The notes under the pieces were generated by a model that was given only the letters and a program-made list of their open reading frames with translations, was not told the origin of the DNA and searched no databases. A stretch of DNA of 38,633 nt, taken from contig JAFZSR010000088.1 of NCBI GenBank assembly GCA_017619275.1, forward strand, positions 1 to 38,633. The letters run 5' to 3'. Positions 272-29,096 of the stretch are shown here, piece by piece (the stretch's first letter is position 1; each line of letters begins with the position of its first letter). The DNA comes from Prevotella sp. (lineage in GTDB: Bacteria; Bacteroidota; Bacteroidia; Bacteroidales; Bacteroidaceae). The position numbers were made by a program, and so were the translations under genes.

Positions 272-1660
272 CTATACTGTGTCGCCATAGCGCTCCTTGA
301 CGATGTCGTCGAGTGAGCGGCCACGGGTGTTGGGGGCGCCGATGAAGCCCACGATGAGGGCGATGAGCAGCAGCACTATCATGCACCAGGCGGCCACGGT
401 GAAGCCCTCGCCGTTCTCGCCATAGATGAAGGTGAACACCAGTCCCCATACGGCCGACAGGCCACGCACGATGAAGAACATGAGTCCCTGCGCACCGGCA
501 CGGAACTTGGCAGGGAACAGCTCGCTGCCCCACAGGGCGTAGAACACCTGCACGGAGCTGCCGTTGTTGATGCCCCACAGGATGGTGAAGAGCCAGATGC
601 CGCCAATGCTGGTGATGCTACCGCCGATGACCAGGATCCAGGCCGTGAGCGCTGCCGCCAGTCCGAAGACGTAGAAGAAGCGGTGGGCCACCTTGTCCAC
701 ATAGAACGAGATGATGAACGTGGTGACGACCACGAAGACCCAGCTGATGCAGCTCAGCATGTTGGCTGTTTCGTTGCTCAGTCCGCCAGCGGTTTCGTAG
801 ACGTGGGGCATGAAAAAGCCCATGACGGAGGCCACGAGGTTCCACGTGAGGTAGATGGTGGCCAGGAAGATGACCGACCGCACTGCCACACGGCTGGAGA
901 AGAGCATCTTGATGTTTTCCACGATGCCGCTCTTCTCCTTCGCCTTACCCTGCTCAAACACGGCGCTCTCCTGCAGTTGGCGTTGCAGGTTCCAGGCAAT
1001 GAAAGCCACGACGAAGAGCGTGAAGAACACCACGCGCGACGAGAACACCTCGACGGCCGACTGCGCTGCGTCGGCACCGATGACGGCGTGCGCCAACGAC
1101 TCCACGGGGGCATAGAGGTAGCCGCCGGGAGCGAAGAGCATGCCGAAGAAGAGGATGACCATAGGGCCGATGCCCCACGACATCTGCGAGATGCAGATAT
1201 TGCGGCCACGGTTGTTCACCTCGCTCGACTCGGAGATATACGTCCACGAGGCGGGCACGCCGATACCCACGCTGATGCCAGTGATGAGGAATCCGCAGAG
1301 CAACATGGGATAGCTGAAGGCGAGCATGATGATGAGCACACCGAGCATGTAGACCAGCAGGTTGTAGGTGAAGATGAACTTGCGCCCGAACTTGTCGGCC
1401 AGGAAGCCGCCGATGATGGCACCGATGGCAGCACCCAGCGCATTGGCGCTGAGGGCGTTGAGCCATCCCAGATGCATCTCGCTCAGTCCGAGGTAGTTCT
1501 GCCACAGGGTGATTCCGCTGGAGCCGGCCACGATGGCACCAGCATCCAGGTAGTTGTTGAGGGAGACAGCGAGGGTGCTCTTAAGGGATGAGGAAGACCC
1601 TCCCCCTTGCCCCTCCCTTGTAGGGAGGGGAGTAGAATGACTTGTTGAATTCTTATTCAT
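272..1660 (-). CDS. MFS sugar transporter, probably for L-rhamnose
   Basis: A 462-residue inner-membrane protein of the major facilitator superfamily, sugar-porter type, with about 12 hydrophobic segments. The loop after TM2 carries the signature GGFLADKFGRK, and PNTRGRSLDDI near the C-terminus resembles the family's PETKG motif. It is the last gene of the leftward rhaB-rhaA group, so uptake of L-rhamnose or a related deoxysugar by proton symport is the likely role. The substrate is inferred from context only; Bacteroides usually uses a different (DMT-type) rhamnose permease. The start is odd: residues of about 9-20 (TPLPTREGQGGG) are translated from an interspersed palindromic repeat at 1602-1633, and no other ATG precedes the first membrane segment. 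The original start codon was probably lost when the repeat arrived. Confidence 0.85.
   Translation of the reverse strand: MNKNSTSHSTPLPTREGQGGGSSSSLKSTLAVSLNNYLDAGAIVAGSSGITLWQNYLGLSEMHLGWLNALSANALGAAIGAIIGGFLADKFGRKFIFTYNLLVYMLGVLIIMLAFSYPMLLCGFLITGISVGIGVPASWTYISESSEVNNRGRNICISQMSWGIGPMVILFFGMLFAPGGYLYAPVESLAHAVIGADAAQSAVEVFSSRVVFFTLFVVAFIAWNLQRQLQESAVFEQGKAKEKSGIVENIKMLFSSRVAVRSVIFLATIYLTWNLVASVMGFFMPHVYETAGGLSNETANMLSCISWVFVVVTTFIISFYVDKVAHRFFYVFGLAAALTAWILVIGGSITSIGGIWLFTILWGINNGSSVQVFYALWGSELFPAKFRAGAQGLMFFIVRGLSAVWGLVFTFIYGENGEGFTVAAWCMIVLLLIALIVGFIGAPNTRGRSLDDIVKERYGDTV
1602..1633 (-). repeat. inverted palindromic repeat, copy inside the transporter N-terminus
   Basis: This is the left arm of the pair flanking the DUF559 gene. 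It is translated as part of the N-terminus of the MFS transporter. Confidence 0.75.
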
Positions 1661-1688
1661 TGAAAAATCTTCTATTAGAAAAAAACTT

Positions 1689-2065
1689 CTATTTGAAATA
1701 ATCTTCTATTTTTTGTAATACATTATCGATGTCGTATAAGACCTCTTCGTTCGTAAAACGCAGGATATGAAAACCCATTTGTTCCAAGGCGCTCTCACGA
1801 ATGGCATCGTTCTCCATTTGTTGCCGTTCTGCATGATAGCCACCGTCAACTTCGACAATCACCCCCCGTGCCGTGATGCGAAATCTGCAATGTAATCGCC
1901 AACGATATGCTGCCGTAGGAAATCGACGCCTAAAGCTCCATTCCTAAGATGTTCCCACAGAAACTCTTCAGCTATCGTGGCATTCTTCCTGTTTTCACGT
2001 GCATAAGCACGCAACAGCGCATATCGGTCAGGCGAAGCAGTTTTATATGACGCAGTCTTTCCCAT
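1689..2065 (-). pseudogene. DUF559 / Vsr-like endonuclease, frameshifted
   Basis: The N-terminal 62 residues (starting MGKTASYKTASPDR, then EEFLWEHLRNGALGVDFLRQH) match the usual start of short DUF559 (very-short-patch-repair-like) nucleases of about 120 residues. The frame then runs into a stop at about 1859. The rest of the domain, VIVEVDGGYHAERQQMEND through FTNEEVLYDIDNVLQK, continues in another frame to a TAG at 1689-1691. Adding one base in the AAA run near 1881-1883 would restore ADFRITARGVIVEVDGGYH, so a single-base deletion or a sequencing error explains the break. The PD-(D/E)XK-type core residues of the family (the VEVDG strand) are present but out of frame. It lies between inverted repeats inside the rhamnose operon and has no evident role in rhamnose use. 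Confidence 0.8.
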
Positions 2066-2079
2066 TCTCGAATCTAACC

Positions 2080-2111
2080 ACTCCCCTCCCTACAAGGGAG
2101 GGGTAAGGGGG
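2080..2111 (+). repeat. inverted palindromic repeat, copy next to the rhaA stop
   Basis: This is the right arm of the pair flanking the DUF559 gene. It matches the reverse complement of 1602-1633 at 31 of 32 positions and begins four bases after the rhaA stop codon. The palindromic core could also act as a hairpin between rhaA and the downstream genes. Confidence 0.75.
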
Positions 2112-2115
2112 TCCT

Positions 2116-3366
2116 TTATCGCTTCGAAGTCACCTCTTTCTCGTACTGCTGGATGCACTGGATAAACTCCTCACCCACAGGCACATTATTGCGGAGGTTA
2201 AAGTAGTCGTAGACGGCACCGAAGGGCATCGACTTGGCCTCTTCCATCAGGGCGAGGCGCTCAAAGTCTTGTCCGTTGTCCTCATACTCACGCAGCTTTG
2301 CCTTCGGCTCGAGCAGGGCCTGGAGGATGCACTTCTGCGTCGCGCGCGAACCTATAATATATGCTCCTATGCGGTTGATGCTGGCATCGAAATAGTCGAG
2401 GCCCACATGGGCGCGGTCGAGGGCGTCGCTGCGCACCAGCTCCTTGAAGAGGTCGAGCGTCTGGTCGTTCATGATGGTCACATGATCGCTGTCCCAGCGG
2501 ATGGGGCGGCTGACGTGGAGCATCAGCTCGGGCACGTACATCAGCAGGGTGCTGACGAAGTCGCTCACGTTCTCCGTAGGCTCATAGTGGCCAGTGTCGA
2601 GCGTGTACATCTGCTTGCGGGTGGCGCAATAGGCGGTGAAGAAGTCGTGGCTGCCCACGGTGTAGCTCTCCAGGCCGATGCCGAAAAGCTTGGCCTCGAA
2701 GCAGTTCTTCACGCCGTCGAGCTTCTCCTCCATGATCTCGTCGAGCGAGGCGGCCAGGATTTCGCGGTACTTCTTGCGCTGCACGGGCATGTCCTTCGAG
2801 CCGTCGTGCACCCAGATGTTCATGATGCAGGGGTCGTTCTGTGCCTTGCCCATGGCGTCGGCGATGCGGCGACAACGCTTGGTGTGCTCAATCCAGAAGT
2901 CGCGGATGCCCTTGTCGGGGTTGCTCAGCGTGAGACTGCCGCTCTTGGGGTGCGAGAAGGAGGTGCTGTTGAAGTCGAGCTTCATGTTGTTCTCCTTGGC
3001 CCAGTCCATCCAGCTCTGGAAGTGCTTTGGCTCCACCTGGTCGCGGTCGACGAAGGTGCCGCCGAAGTCGCCGTAGATCTCGTGTAGGTTCAGGCGGTGG
3101 TTGCCGCCGAGGAGGGTCTTCACGAACTCGATGTCCTGTCGCACCTCGTCGATGTTGCGGGCACGGCCGGGATAGTTGCCCGTGGTCTGGATGCCTCCGC
3201 TGAGCGCGTCGTTGCGCTCGAAGCCCACCACGTCGTCGGTTTGCCAGCAGTGCAAGGAGAGTTGTTGCTTTTGCAATTGGTCGAGAACTGCGTCGGTGTT
3301 GACGCCAATGGCTGCGTAGCGCTCTTTCGCCACTGCATATGCCTGTTCAATCAGTTTTGCTTTCAT
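2116..3366 (-). CDS. rhaA: L-rhamnose isomerase
   Basis: This 416-residue cytoplasmic enzyme interconverts L-rhamnose and L-rhamnulose; E. coli RhaA is 419 residues. It is recognised along its length: SLHCWQTDDVVGFE near the N-terminus, GGIQTTGNYPGRARN, LNLHEIYGD, DFNSTSFSHPKSG, IWVHDGSKD, FGIGLESYTVGSHDFF and LDTGHYEPTENVSDFVS. The acidic and histidine residues in these last segments form the metal site of the family. The ATG at 3366 gives the standard N-terminus. rhaB ends 39 bases upstream across a short stretch of repeated CCCATTAA-like sequence, so the two genes are probably cotranscribed. Confidence 0.97.
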   Translation of the reverse strand: MKAKLIEQAYAVAKERYAAIGVNTDAVLDQLQKQQLSLHCWQTDDVVGFERNDALSGGIQTTGNYPGRARNIDEVRQDIEFVKTLLGGNHRLNLHEIYGDFGGTFVDRDQVEPKHFQSWMDWAKENNMKLDFNSTSFSHPKSGSLTLSNPDKGIRDFWIEHTKRCRRIADAMGKAQNDPCIMNIWVHDGSKDMPVQRKKYREILAASLDEIMEEKLDGVKNCFEAKLFGIGLESYTVGSHDFFTAYCATRKQMYTLDTGHYEPTENVSDFVSTLLMYVPELMLHVSRPIRWDSDHVTIMNDQTLDLFKELVRSDALDRAHVGLDYFDASINRIGAYIIGSRATQKCILQALLEPKAKLREYEDNGQDFERLALMEEAKSMPFGAVYDYFNLRNNVPVGEEFIQCIQQYEKEVTSKR

Positions 3367-7919: not shown

Positions 7920-7938
7920 ATATAGAAAAGCCTAATAT

Positions 7939-7980
7939 CTAAAGTCTATCGTCTAAAGTCTTCAATCTACAGTCTTTATT
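7939..7980. repeat. degenerate 7-bp tandem repeat
   Basis: Six units with a 7-bp period (CTAAAGT, CTATCGT, CTAAAGT, CTTCAAT, CTACAGT, CTTTATT) lie just past the 3' end of the GH43 gene. It is the decayed relative of the array at 25626-25730, also at the 3' end of a leftward gene. Confidence 0.6.
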
Positions 7981-7989
7981 TGAAGATGA

Positions 7990-12686: not shown

Positions 12687-12769
12687 CAGTTTTTCGGCCA
12701 CACCTCATTCATTCTGTGTTTCATTGATTATAATAATTGTTCCGAAGCTGCATTTTCTTCAAAACTAAA

Positions 12770-12804
12770 GCCAGCCGACGCCCCATTGGGGGGAGCCGGC
12801 TGGC
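12770..12804 (-). terminator. GC-rich hairpin after cdsA
   Basis: GCCAGCCG (12770-12777) pairs with CGGCTGGC (12797-12804), with a second inner stem of CCCC and GGGG around ATT. It lies 33 bases past the cdsA stop and probably ends the rsfS-ftsH-cdsA transcript. Its inner part ATTGGGGGGAGCCGG recurs exactly at 23071-23085, so it may derive from an interspersed repeat. Confidence 0.6.
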
Positions 12805-12837
12805 AGTTTTTCGTAATACTTACCTTGTCGTGAAATA

Positions 12838-15701: not shown

Positions 15702-15713
15702 TATATTGTTTAA

Positions 15714-15841
15714 GCCCCCTAAGTTAGGGGGTTGGGGGTCTGAACAAGCGAAAATACAAACCCATTTTTGTTCATTTATATCATATTCAGGGGATTGGCA
15801 GTCTGCGCTTGTTCAGACCCCATCCCCCTAACTTAGGGGGC
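15714..15841. mobile_element. MITE-like inverted repeat between rsfS and ftsH
   Basis: About 128 bp. The arms 15714-15750 and 15806-15841 are inverted copies with one mismatch and one missing base. Each has an outer palindrome (CCCCCTAAGTTAGGGGG) and an inner part ending TCTGAACAAGCG. The 55-bp middle is AT-rich and noncoding. The right arm overlaps the end of rsfS and supplies its last codon and TAA stop. It resembles the repeat pair around the DUF559 gene in having a palindrome plus a G-rich tail, but here the palindromes face outward. Confidence 0.6.
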
Positions 15842-16195
15842 GTAGTCGGGGATGCGCGTCAATGGTGCATCGGCCCACAGGTGTTCCAAGTCGTAGAAGG
15901 AACGCATTTCGGGCACAAACACATGCACCAGCACATCGCCATAGTCCATAGCCACCCACAGCGCACGTTCCAAACCCACCACGCGTGCAGGTTTCTCACC
16001 CAGCTCCTGGCGGGCCACTTCTCCCACCGACTCGGCGATGGCCTCCACTTGTGTAGGCGAGCCTCCTTGACACACTACAAACTGGCGACAGATAGCGCCA
16101 TCGATGTCACTCAGGTCAGCCACCACGATGCCAGTTCCTTTCTTTTCTTGTATTCCCTTAACGATTGTTTTTACCAAGCTGTTTGTTTGTTCCAT
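15833..16195 (-). CDS. rsfS: ribosomal silencing factor RsfS
   Basis: A 120-residue cytoplasmic protein of the RsfS/Iojap family. It binds ribosomal protein uL14 and blocks subunit joining when nutrients are scarce. Typical segments are KGTGIVVADLSDID near the N-terminus, FVVCQGGSPTQVEAIAESV, and WVAMDYGDVLVHVFVPEMRSFYDLE near the C-terminus. It is first in the rsfS-ftsH-cdsA cluster. A -7 box, TAACTTTG on the minus strand, lies at 16217-16224. The last codon and stop (GCCCCCTAA) come from the inverted repeat that follows, so the natural C-terminus may have been altered slightly. Confidence 0.95.
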   Translation of the reverse strand: MEQTNSLVKTIVKGIQEKKGTGIVVADLSDIDGAICRQFVVCQGGSPTQVEAIAESVGEVARQELGEKPARVVGLERALWVAMDYGDVLVHVFVPEMRSFYDLEHLWADAPLTRIPDYAP

Positions 16196-20608: not shown

Positions 20609-20653
20609 TGTTAAATGTCTGTTCAGATTTAGTTTATACAAATGAATATTATT

Positions 20654-20738
20654 ATCTACAACAGATTAAAACGGATTTCACGGATTTTGGCTACATAGGA
20701 CCCTCATCCGTTTAATCCGTTTTAATCCGTTGTTGATA
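20654..20738 (-). repeat. 85-bp hairpin repeat, copy A
   Basis: Two arms of about 33 bp, built from ACGGATTAAAACGGATT-like sequence, are inverted around a 20-base loop. The same family recurs at 22941-23020. It lies just past the stop of the leftward DUF1593 gene and probably acts as its terminator. Confidence 0.75.
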
Positions 20739-20763
20739 AAAGATAATAGTGTTCTTCTACTTA

Positions 20764-22900: not shown

Positions 22901-22940
22901 ATCGTCGAAGTTATTAAATTAGTGAACATATTATTCTTAT

Positions 22941-23020
22941 ATCAACAACGGATTAAAACGGATTTAACGGATGACTGCCATGCGCAGCCAATCCGTGAAA
23001 TCCGTGAAATCCGTTGTTGA
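22941..23020 (-). repeat. 80-bp hairpin repeat, copy B
   Basis: Arms at 22941-22972 and 22990-23020 are inverted copies built from ACGGATT and AATCCGT units. It belongs to the same family as 20654-20738. It lies 80 bases past the stop of the leftward lipid kinase gene, where it may act as a terminator, and upstream of the Cys-rich gene. Confidence 0.75.
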
Positions 23021-23060
23021 AAAATAAAAGCCATTTGTATAAACTAAATTTGAACCCCGT

Positions 23061-23092
23061 CCCTCACCCTATTGGGGGGAGCCGGAGGGGGG
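23061..23092. repeat. G-rich interspersed repeat after the lipid kinase gene
   Basis: Contains ATTGGGGGGAGCCGG (23071-23085), identical to 12785-12799 in the cdsA terminator, followed by AGGGGGG. It begins a few bases past the lipid kinase stop. It is another member of the G-run palindromic repeats seen at 1602, 2080 and 15714. Confidence 0.6.
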
Positions 23093-23099
23093 TCACACC

Positions 23100-24080
23100 T
23101 CATTTCTTCGCATGTCCCCTGCCATCGAGCAGATGGCTGAATGCGCTGGCCACCTTGCCGGGTTTCGCCTTGTCCTCGATGGCCTCAGGATTCACGATGG
23201 CCTTCAACGACATGGGCTTGATGGCGATGTCGATGTCGCAGCCCATCACCGAGGGGTCGCCATCGAAGTGCACAGCCCCCTCTTCCTGACGATGGATATG
23301 CAGACTGCGTGCCTGGAAGTGACGCACGTGGTGATTGTCTTTCACGGTTTTCAGCATCAGGTCCATCAGCATCTTCGGGCCTCCCATGCCCTTGAAAGGC
23401 TCCATGATGATGACATCGAGCAAGCCGTCTTGCATCGAGGCGCCGGGAGCTATATAGGTATTATTACCATACTGTGCCGCATTGCCACAGGCGATGAGGA
23501 AGGCGTCGTAGTGGGTCACCTCGCCAGCGGCATCTTCCACCTGCACATCGTAGCTGGCAGGCTTGTATCTCATGCCCTCGCTGAGCACCATCTTGGCATA
23601 GGTGGCCAAGCCACGCTTGCCGCTCTGGGCAAATTTCAGCGACACAAAGGCATCGAAGCCCATGCCGCAGGTGCAGAAGAACGGATGTCCGTTGATGACG
23701 CCGTGGTCGAACATAGACGTGTGTCCCTGGGCAATCATGGCCAGCGAGCCTTTCATGCTCATGGGCAGACACAGATGACGTGCCAGGCCGTTGCCCGATC
23801 CGCTGGGCACGATGCCCAACGCCGTCTGCGTGCCTACCAGCGAGCGGGCCACCTCGTTCACCGTGCCATCGCCACCCACAGCCACACATATGTCAACTCC
23901 GTCGGCGGCACACTGCGAAGCCAGCTCAGCAGCATGACCGGCATACTCGGTGCGCACGATACGCCAATCAAACTGCTCGGCATCCAACACGCGCTCCACC
24001 AATCGGTCGAATCCCTTCTTCGAACTGGTGCCCGAGATGGGGTTCACAATGAAAACTATTTGCTTCTTTTTCGTATGCAT
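23100..24080 (-). CDS. diacylglycerol/sphingoid-type lipid kinase (YegS/DagK family)
   Basis: A 326-residue kinase of the YegS/BmrU family that phosphorylates a lipid hydroxyl. It has FIVNPISGTSSKKG at the N-terminus, the nucleotide loop VGGDGTVNEV (about 68-77), VPSGSGNGLARHL (91-103), GMGFDAFVS, and a C-terminal beta domain with the substrate-side motif HFDGDPSVMG. The ATG at 24080 is used; the frame stays open far upstream only as a shadow of the opposite gene. A TACTTTTG box on the minus strand (24085-24092) is only four bases from this ATG, so the leader would be very short. The gene is divergent from serine palmitoyltransferase, so the substrate might be a sphingoid base or ceramide instead of diacylglycerol; this is an inference. 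Confidence 0.9.
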   Translation of the reverse strand: MHTKKKQIVFIVNPISGTSSKKGFDRLVERVLDAEQFDWRIVRTEYAGHAAELASQCAADGVDICVAVGGDGTVNEVARSLVGTQTALGIVPSGSGNGLARHLCLPMSMKGSLAMIAQGHTSMFDHGVINGHPFFCTCGMGFDAFVSLKFAQSGKRGLATYAKMVLSEGMRYKPASYDVQVEDAAGEVTHYDAFLIACGNAAQYGNNTYIAPGASMQDGLLDVIIMEPFKGMGGPKMLMDLMLKTVKDNHHVRHFQARSLHIHRQEEGAVHFDGDPSVMGCDIDIAIKPMSLKAIVNPEAIEDKAKPGKVASAFSHLLDGRGHAKK

Positions 24081-25572: not shown

Positions 25573-25615
25573 AAGAATGGCTTGACAAACAAAATGTCAA
25601 GCCATTCTTTTTTTT
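25573..25615 (+). terminator. strong terminator after tRNA-Pro
   Basis: A 15-bp stem (25573-25587 with 25595-25609, GAATGGCTTGACA and its complement), a 7-nt loop and eight or more T residues make a textbook intrinsic terminator. Confidence 0.93.
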
Positions 25616-25625
25616 GCCGCCTCGC

Positions 25626-25730
25626 TATAGCCTACCGTCTATAGTCTACAGTCTATAGTCTATAGTCTATAGTCTACAGTCTACAGTCTATAGTCTACAG
25701 TCCATAGCCTACAGTCTATAGAATATAGGT
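25626..25730. repeat. 7-bp tandem repeat (TAYAGTC), about 15 units
   Basis: Units alternate between TATAGTC and TACAGTC with a few variants, in an unbroken 7-bp period. The last units overlap the final codons and the TAG stop of the leftward phosphopantetheinyl transferase gene. Slippage would change unit number without damaging the domain. A degenerate array of the same period is at 7939-7980. Confidence 0.9.
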
Positions 25731-26252
25731 CAAAACATAGTCGGGAGAAAACTCGTAGTGAACGTCGACAACGACATCGCGCTTCAGGTTTTCCATCTGT
25801 AGCATATTTTCGGCTACAGCCAGCGTGCGCATGTCGTAAAACAGTAGGTTGTCTTCGGAGAAATACTTGTAGAGCGCTTCCTTGGCCGACCATATCAGCA
25901 GTTTTTCGCTGGTGGTCTCAGCCTTTTCGTCGGGACGGATGAAGCGGCTGGCGATGCGCTCCACACGGTCGGAGCGCCGCTCGATGTCGATTCCCAAGCG
26001 CCCGCTGTCGGCCAGCAACAGGGCAGCATAGCCCTGCGTATGACTGATGGAGATGGTCTGTCCGTTGTCGAGGAAGGGCTTCCCGCTGGATTCGTGCTGA
26101 ATGGTGAGTGCGGCGTTGCCCGTCATCGCCTCCAGCAGTCGCGCCACAGCCTTTCGCTCGCGCAGTCGGGGTTTTTCGTAGGCATCCTCTTCCATGCGCC
26201 AAAGGCCCAATTGTGCCCGATCGTCAATCTGCCTGATGTTTATCAGCGCCAT
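25716..26252 (-). CDS. 4'-phosphopantetheinyl transferase
   Basis: A 178-residue enzyme of the Sfp/AcpT superfamily that moves 4'-phosphopantetheine from CoA to a carrier protein. The magnesium site is GIDIE (87-91), with the second motif WSAKEALYK (121-129) and ISISHTQGYAALLL (67-80) upstream. It is short for the family, suggesting a compact or AcpT-like form. It starts six bases after gldE, so it is in the same operon. The stop codon lies in the 7-bp repeat array. Its carrier protein partner is not in this window. Confidence 0.92.
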   Translation of the reverse strand: MALINIRQIDDRAQLGLWRMEEDAYEKPRLRERKAVARLLEAMTGNAALTIQHESSGKPFLDNGQTISISHTQGYAALLLADSGRLGIDIERRSDRVERIASRFIRPDEKAETTSEKLLIWSAKEALYKYFSEDNLLFYDMRTLAVAENMLQMENLKRDVVVDVHYEFSPDYVLTYIL

Positions 26253-28532: not shown

Positions 28533-28621
28533 TGTGGTTTTTACGTTGATTTACTTCTGACTTTTTCTTTTGCCTCTGCTCTAGGCTGTATGAAAAACGT
28601 TCTCCTAAAAATAAAAAAAAG

Positions 28622-28694
<73 letters not shown>

Positions 28695-28725
28695 AATTAT
28701 ATACCCATAAAAAAGTGCCAAATGG

Positions 28726-28920: not shown

Positions 28921-28977
28921 ATTTACCGTCATTGTTGGGGCCTTCCCCAACAGCGGCTCTTTTCGTTCAACATGTGG

Positions 28978-29050
<73 letters not shown>

Positions 29051-29096
29051 AATACTAATCCTTATCAAAAAGGAGCATCTCTCTCGATTGCGGGTG

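Follow-up and report, generated by a model that had tools for sequence, protein, structure and literature searches.

Among described systems, REP sequences and their BIME/REPIN doublets, which together with the RAYT (TnpA-REP) enzymes are called 'REPtrons', resemble the element considered here in having short palindromes with an asymmetric tag, inverted doublets and tens of copies, as well as a linked gene of nuclease type that is paired with a palindrome of its own. In the available sections of the REP–RAYT literature, the palindrome is described with a GTAG or CGTC tag alongside (PMC3733652, PMC8266576). Unlike REPtrons, the element described below lacks a constant GTAG or CGTC tag next to its palindrome: by eye, the inner arm edges are AGTA/AGTG in the T1 and T2 types and GGGGGTCTGAAC in T3, and GTAG is present in some, not all, T2 arms. 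Moreover, its enzyme is a DUF559 protein (EDxHD/Vsr-like) rather than an HuH/Y1 transposase, and it forms in-frame insertions in conserved proteins.

A second relationship is with the EDxHD homing endonucleases, of which I-Bth0305I (3r3p) is the best solved homing-endonuclease match and shares the conserved E, D, H, D set. The DUF559 unit differs from them in having palindromic ends and no intron or intein, and in occupying many sites per genome as against one allelic site; the lack of an intron or intein leaves homing possible, because free-standing homing genes exist. Vsr and VsrA mismatch endonucleases belong to the same broad nuclease superfamily, but DUF559 units have palindromes at both ends and reappear at new sites. 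As to palindromic DNA kept in frame inside protein genes, it is known from the Rickettsia palindromic elements (RPE), which, compared by description, are about 150 bp long and for which the accessible part of the source mentions no nuclease gene (PMC10969869). Finally, the Rhizobium-specific intergenic mosaic elements (RIME) may be akin to the palindromes of one Sinorhizobium locus (L341, see below), again compared by description, with no nuclease named in the accessible part of the source (PMC2573895). Overall, the DUF559 unit works like REP–RAYT and in part like homing endonucleases and RPE, without one defining feature of the first two. No family tested contains it. A literature search, which left most subscription papers outside its reach, found no paper linking DUF559 to palindromic repeats; the two papers in which both terms occur are, by their titles, about CRISPR in Aliivibrio and about NAD metabolism.

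The unit between rhaA and the transporter gene

The window, that is, the whole stretch of 38,633 nucleotides analysed (Prevotella sp., contig JAFZSR010000088.1), contains the following features at this locus:

272..1660, minus strand: MFS transporter frame; its listed start lies inside the unit, the left arm being read as its N-terminus
1596..1633, no strand: left arm, outer C-rich tag plus palindrome, an inverted copy of the right arm
1689..2065 (about), minus strand: DUF559 nuclease gene, frameshifted in the window copy (PF04480 matches; open orthologue in the sister genome G059)
2080..2113, no strand: right arm, palindrome plus outer G-rich tag
2116..3366, minus strand: rhaA, L-rhamnose isomerase, flanking the unit opposite the transporter

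The palindromic arms proper (1602–1633 and 2080–2111) are 32 nt each, lie 446 nt apart and are 97% complementary as inverted copies. Each is a palindrome whose loop measures 3 nt, bordered on its outside by a C-rich tag, and forms a 9-bp hairpin that folds moderately better than shuffled sequences (z about −2). With the outer C-rich tag included, the unit spans about 1596–2113 when aligned against G059. Between the arms there is a single gene, on the minus strand, in which PF04480 (DUF559) is matched in two overlapping pieces in two frames. The window copy is thus frameshifted, a point absent from the preliminary description, and the G059 orthologue is open over 125 codons. Otherwise, the layout given there, a DUF559 gene enclosed by inverted palindromic arms between rhaA and the transporter, is confirmed by the arms, the single gene and the neighbours. 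The transporter frame as listed starts at 1660, within the unit, and reads through the left arm.

A search with window positions 1300–2450 in 150 genomes of the genus gave a match in 117. Among the places listed, only G059 (93% identical over the stretch) has the unit at the rhaA–transporter junction, and in at least eight other genomes the two flanks stand side by side without it. Six such junctions were read: the gap between transporter and rhaA is 31 to 137 bases, and none of the six contains a palindromic arm. Hence, the empty junctions that had been proposed as a check do exist in congeners (6/6), and the unit with an open gene is found in the sister genome. Most likely, to judge from these alignments, the unit was gained by the ancestor that the window's species shares with G059, and the copy in the window decayed later.

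The gene product is predicted to be an EDxHD/Vsr-like DNA nuclease. Residues E72, D74, H78 and D87 are among 16 columns invariant across 19 diverse DUF559 members and presumably make up the EDxHD catalytic core. The predicted structure (pLDDT 86.5, pTM 0.79) has its best fold matches in 3hrl (1.1e-6) and in the homing endonuclease I-Bth0305I, 3r3p (1.1e-4), the match to Vsr (1vsr) being weak (0.19); the sequence search agrees on 3hrl and I-Bth0305I (4.6e-4 for the latter). In five unit proteins scanned, DUF559 was matched, MTES_1575/DUF2726 was matched weakly, and no transposase domain, Y1_Tnp included, was found. No intein domain was detected in 22 long frames scanned (see below), and no self-splicing RNA or intron family was detected in six stretches (window 1400–2300 and five loci). 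The sole weak match, RF01872 with 23.8 bits against a cut-off of 60, was taken as chance, and a self-splicing RNA was rejected. For Caulobacter VsrA, a Vsr-like DUF559 protein, the accessible part of the report describes a repair role, a DNA-damage phenotype and a link to a cytosine methyltransferase and the SOS response (PMC12907096); such a role and a palindrome role for DUF559 could coexist.

DUF559 nucleases and their cognate arms

To assess how general the association is, the arm score was defined as the best inverted match between the 300 bases to the left and the 300 bases to the right of the DUF559 domain, with a pass at 14 or more, and windows of equal geometry located 1100 bases away within the same loci served as controls. 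DUF559 was found in 51 of 100 genomes, the own genome counted. A score of at least 14 was reached by 149 of 217 DUF559 loci and by one of 421 control windows, which is also how rarely inverted pairs comparable in strength to that of the window occur in the same geometry. By sample, 63 of 89 loci pass in the genus and order set (controls 0/173), and 31 of 66 in the phylum sample (0/130). Among named Bacteroidales, 50 of 52 pass (0/100); this set was obtained with one query protein, represents largely one or a few orthologous sites and overlaps the genus and order set (L186, L188 and L233 are L009, L013 and L052). Other named loci pass in five of ten cases (1/18). The five belong to Chloroflexi, Melainabacteria, Sideroxydans, a deltaproteobacterium and Methylomirabilota, and two of them score exactly 14; of the five below the threshold, two come from Bacteroidota. 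A plasmid sample, 11 loci out of 42 plasmid records with DUF559 and including cyanobacteria, alphaproteobacteria and Deinococcus, gave seven passes against 0 of 22 control windows: Pseudanabaena, Sinorhizobium, Azospirillum lipoferum, two Deinococcus, Sphingomonas and Sphingobium. Picosynechococcus (13), Azospirillum brasilense, Shinella and Photobacterium were below the threshold. Two of the passing plasmid units sit within operons, one in the paaD/paaZ gap and one between transhydrogenase genes.

When loci were grouped by similar flanks (blastn) and a site was passed if its median score was at least 14, 75 of 115 sites passed (43/56 in Bacteroidales, 28/50 in the wider phylum and 4/9 elsewhere), and 40 of 115 had no arm pair above the threshold. 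The suggestion that palindromes also flank DUF559 genes of relatives is therefore borne out at the level of loci, grouped sites and plasmids. Movement is rare, because most related units are inherited at fixed sites, one similar-flank group comprising 33 loci. Another group, of 15 loci (L033, L036, L052, L056, L062, L068, L071 and others), includes units just upstream of guanylate kinase (Pfam in L052), and its arms are not all alike; it may reflect either targeting that happened repeatedly or an old inheritance.

In a tree of nuclease domains, the arm sequences sort by branch. One nuclease subfamily has CCTCACCCCC ahead of CCCCTCTCC...GGAGAGGGG; the window's subfamily, T2, has GACCCTCCCCC ahead of CCCCTCCCT...AGGGAGGGG; and subfamily T3 has GCCCCCTAAGTTAGGGGG and then TTGGGGGTCTGAACA, with the tag on the inner side. 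Five arm types occur within G059 alone. Because many related units are orthologues of one another, a Mantel test was confined to pairs that differ in both site and genome; in it, arm similarity rose with nuclease identity (rho 0.371 for 57 elements; rho 0.186 for 77 elements, one per site). Neither value was reached in any of 1000 shuffles; shuffling leaves some relatedness, and blastn shows no relation between the flanks of the pairs that were counted. For nucleases at least 60% identical, an arm score of 16 or more was found in 0.857 of 21 pairs and 0.87 of 23 pairs, respectively, as against 0.006 and 0.003 of pairs for nucleases less than 40% identical. In four pairs of paralogous copies within one genome (L011/L040, L250/L251, L038/L047, L028/L048), identity, inspected by eye, stops in the palindrome or at most about 25 bases from it. 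Inspection of the junctions by eye showed no target duplication, with the unit ends placed only approximately. With insertion sequences and MITEs, the unit shares terminal inverted repeats; a transposase domain was not detected in the five unit proteins scanned.

Gene-less doublets and in-frame insertions

A second inverted pair of the window is free of DUF559:

15711..15844, no strand: DUF559-free inverted doublet with T3-type arms (15711–15737 and 15818–15844); likely a non-autonomous relative

The pair had previously been placed at 15714–15841 and is real. Its arm orientation, opposite to that of the rhaA unit, had been thought to weaken the link between the two; this concern is resolved, since the orientation is that of another DUF559 subfamily (L015, L053, L077, L080). 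The doublet is missing from the aligned junctions of G059, G137 and G132. T3 doublets have about 35 bases of arm in common on each side. An interior like that of the window's doublet is found in L292, L294 and L303 (77 to 80% over about 130 bases), one place of the own genome matches it at 94%, and other doublet copies are dissimilar; none of five full T3 units shares more than the arms with it. Two single G-run repeats, at 12785 and 23071, had also been proposed as relatives, and folding tests speak against their identity as arms: the repeat at 12768–12818 forms a strong hairpin resembling a terminator (z −3.5), with a T run behind it, and the one at 23055–23100 folds no better than shuffled sequences (z −0.3). 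Both were rejected.

In the own genome, the T2 palindrome was counted at 51 places, in G059 at 68, and 15 of 100 genomes contain it; a reversed control pattern gave 0. The own-genome places include at least eight pairs spaced 53 to 105 bases apart. Of seven T2 loci printed, three (L395, L399, L400) form inverted doublets whose tags point outward as in the full unit; the other four are single copies. For the T3 palindrome, the own genome has 22 places, and 10 of 100 genomes contain it (control 0). Outside Bacteroidota, the Sinorhizobium DUF559 gene (L341) lies between two inverted palindrome pairs, and its arms match 1200 places in 264 plasmid records, mostly of rhizobia; the Sphingobium arm matches 50 places in 15 plasmid records. 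These matches suggest that known orphan repeats of rhizobia and Sphingobium may be of the DUF559-arm kind.

In 52 of 222 loci, the DUF559 frame extends over more than 200 codons. Domain scans were made for 22 of these long frames, and in 11 of the 20 for which both sides were counted (by Pfam or alignment), host sequence is present on both sides of DUF559. The hosts are:

Leucyl-tRNA synthetase (LeuRS): L010, L031, L035
MetH: L172, L177
HsdR: L162, L164
Type ISP enzyme: L157
ABC-F ATPase: L017
Helicases: L020, L073

The arm scores of these cases range from 8 (L017) to 32 (L073), with L017, L031, L035, L157 and L177 below 14. The hairpins of in-frame units are translated. LeuRS of G078 aligns with the Thermus thermophilus enzyme to residue 236 and again from residue 242, so that 142 residues replace 5. 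The ABC-F gene has the insert in G028, where a hairpin on each side shows poor mutual match (score 8), and the insert is absent from all 12 congeners aligned out of 19 returned. Likewise, the helicase insert is present in G037 and G030 and absent from all nine aligned out of 19. Other units stand in one frame ahead of guanylate kinase or IspF. As a separate observation, DUF559 domains recur in restriction–modification proteins (L157, L160, L162, L164, L169; type ISP, methylase, HsdR, HsdM).

Proposed explanations of the spread and further features of the window

It is probable that a DUF559 gene and its two inverted cognate palindromes constitute one small mobile unit, and that the palindrome pair can also spread without the gene. 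This reading is favoured because the unit is found in two sister genomes and is absent from the same junction in congeners, because each nuclease subfamily retains its arm sequence and arm orientation at sites that are unrelated and lie in different genomes, and because doublets that lack the gene but carry these arms are scattered in tens of copies and units lie in frame inside conserved proteins. The preliminary description had proposed a mobile element, and its proposal is supported, mobility by comparison; the manner of movement we infer. The nuclease would recognise its cognate palindrome, probably as a hairpin or cruciform, and would cut at the palindrome or at a target. Host repair would then copy in the arm-bounded segment, a homing-like step that would involve no intron, intein or transposase. 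With G/C-rich arms that are often open in the host frame, a unit in a protein loop or operon gap might be tolerated and long inherited. As for the likeness to REP/RAYT systems with a different enzyme class, also proposed earlier, inverted dispersed palindromes were indeed found, and the linked enzyme is not Y1_Tnp/PF01797.

A broader reading is advanced tentatively. According to it, DUF559 nucleases might run a second, RAYT-independent REP system across bacteria. Each nuclease would have a matching palindrome of its own and would multiply it in the form of doublets lacking the gene, through a nuclease cut followed by repair in the host; the nuclease would also become established in essential proteins, as a domain that is in frame and is not spliced out. 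The common orphan G-rich palindromes found in Prevotella, rhizobia, sphingomonads and others would be the footprints of this system. It is advanced with less confidence because in half of the T3-repeat genomes no T3 nuclease was detected, and the arm pairs of several in-frame cases are weak. Many bacterial palindromic repeats have no known agent, RAYTs accounting for some. If the broader reading is true, a nuclease of another class would be an agent for orphan repeats, and arm-carrying loci occur in Bacteroidota, Pseudomonadota, Cyanobacteriota, Deinococcota, Chloroflexota and others sampled. The question is testable with a small soluble protein and short DNA, and DUF559, by name a domain of unknown function, would obtain a concrete, assayable role. 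The in-frame insertions would represent mobile DNA entering conserved proteins without splicing, and they bear both on annotation, in which arms are read as odd repeat-like peptides, and on domain gain by proteins.

The distribution of nucleases and repeats across the genus was compared in 60 genomes. All five genomes with a T3 nuclease (G028, frameshifted, G031, G039, G044 and G059) fall within the ten having T3 repeats, for which the chance is 252 in 5,461,512 (about 5e-5), with the carriers' own arms counted and relatedness uncorrected. All four with a T2 nuclease (G000, G047, G050 and G059) fall within the 14 having T2 repeats, the chance being 1001 in 487,635 (about 2e-3) with the same counting of own arms and uncorrected relatedness. 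Conversely, T3 repeats are present with no T3 nuclease detected in five of ten genomes (own, G022, G035, G037, G056), and T2 repeats with no T2-group nuclease in ten congeners, several of the genomes being incomplete.

Palindromes in genomes with no detected cognate nuclease are among the observations that could favour an unlikely alternative, namely, that a free-standing homing endonuclease invades pre-existing palindromes of another system. The homing-endonuclease fold agrees with it, and free-standing homing genes are known, as stated in the accessible part of PMC3943268. However, the six empty rhaA–transporter junctions read have no palindrome and hence nothing to home into, and within one genome, as with the five arm types of G059, different nucleases have different arms, which accompany them into other genomes.

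Still less likely is that a Y1/HuH transposase of the RAYT or IS200/IS605 type moves the palindromes and that the nuclease gene is a passenger. RAYT systems do share the inverted-palindrome layout, according to the accessible parts of PMC8266576 and PMC6006769, and PF01797 (Y1 transposase) is matched in 66 of 100 relatives, the own genome giving one weak match (24.4 bits). Yet no PF01797 match was found in seven of 19 T2/T3-repeat genomes (G026, G027, G032, G035, G039, G047, G056; four at least 90% complete), the arms follow the nuclease and not the genome, and the five unit proteins scanned carry no transposase domain. Y1 transposases fit the repeat distribution no better than DUF559, and the case for a RAYT as the agent is weakened.

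That DUF559 is a vertically inherited Vsr-like repair or regulatory nuclease, with hairpins serving as terminators or RNA-processing signals, is the least probable alternative: it agrees with the many units inherited in place and with the methyltransferase and SOS link of Caulobacter VsrA, as far as the accessible part of that report goes (PMC12907096), but the two sides of the unit are inverted matches of each other, down to the outer tag, the domain sits between arms within open frames of LeuRS, MetH, HsdR and a helicase, and doublets that lack the gene but carry these arms are dispersed.

Several other repeats of the window were observed. Identical 77-bp stretches at 28621–28697 and 28977–29053 each contain a tRNA-Gly(gcc) gene, and two tRNA-Leu genes lie in the interval. 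An array of about 7-base units of the CTATAGT/CTACAGT type lies at 25611–25736, with a smaller related stretch at 7925–7987. Long inverted AT-rich repeats are located at 20652–20754 and 22924–23055, about 2.2 kb apart.
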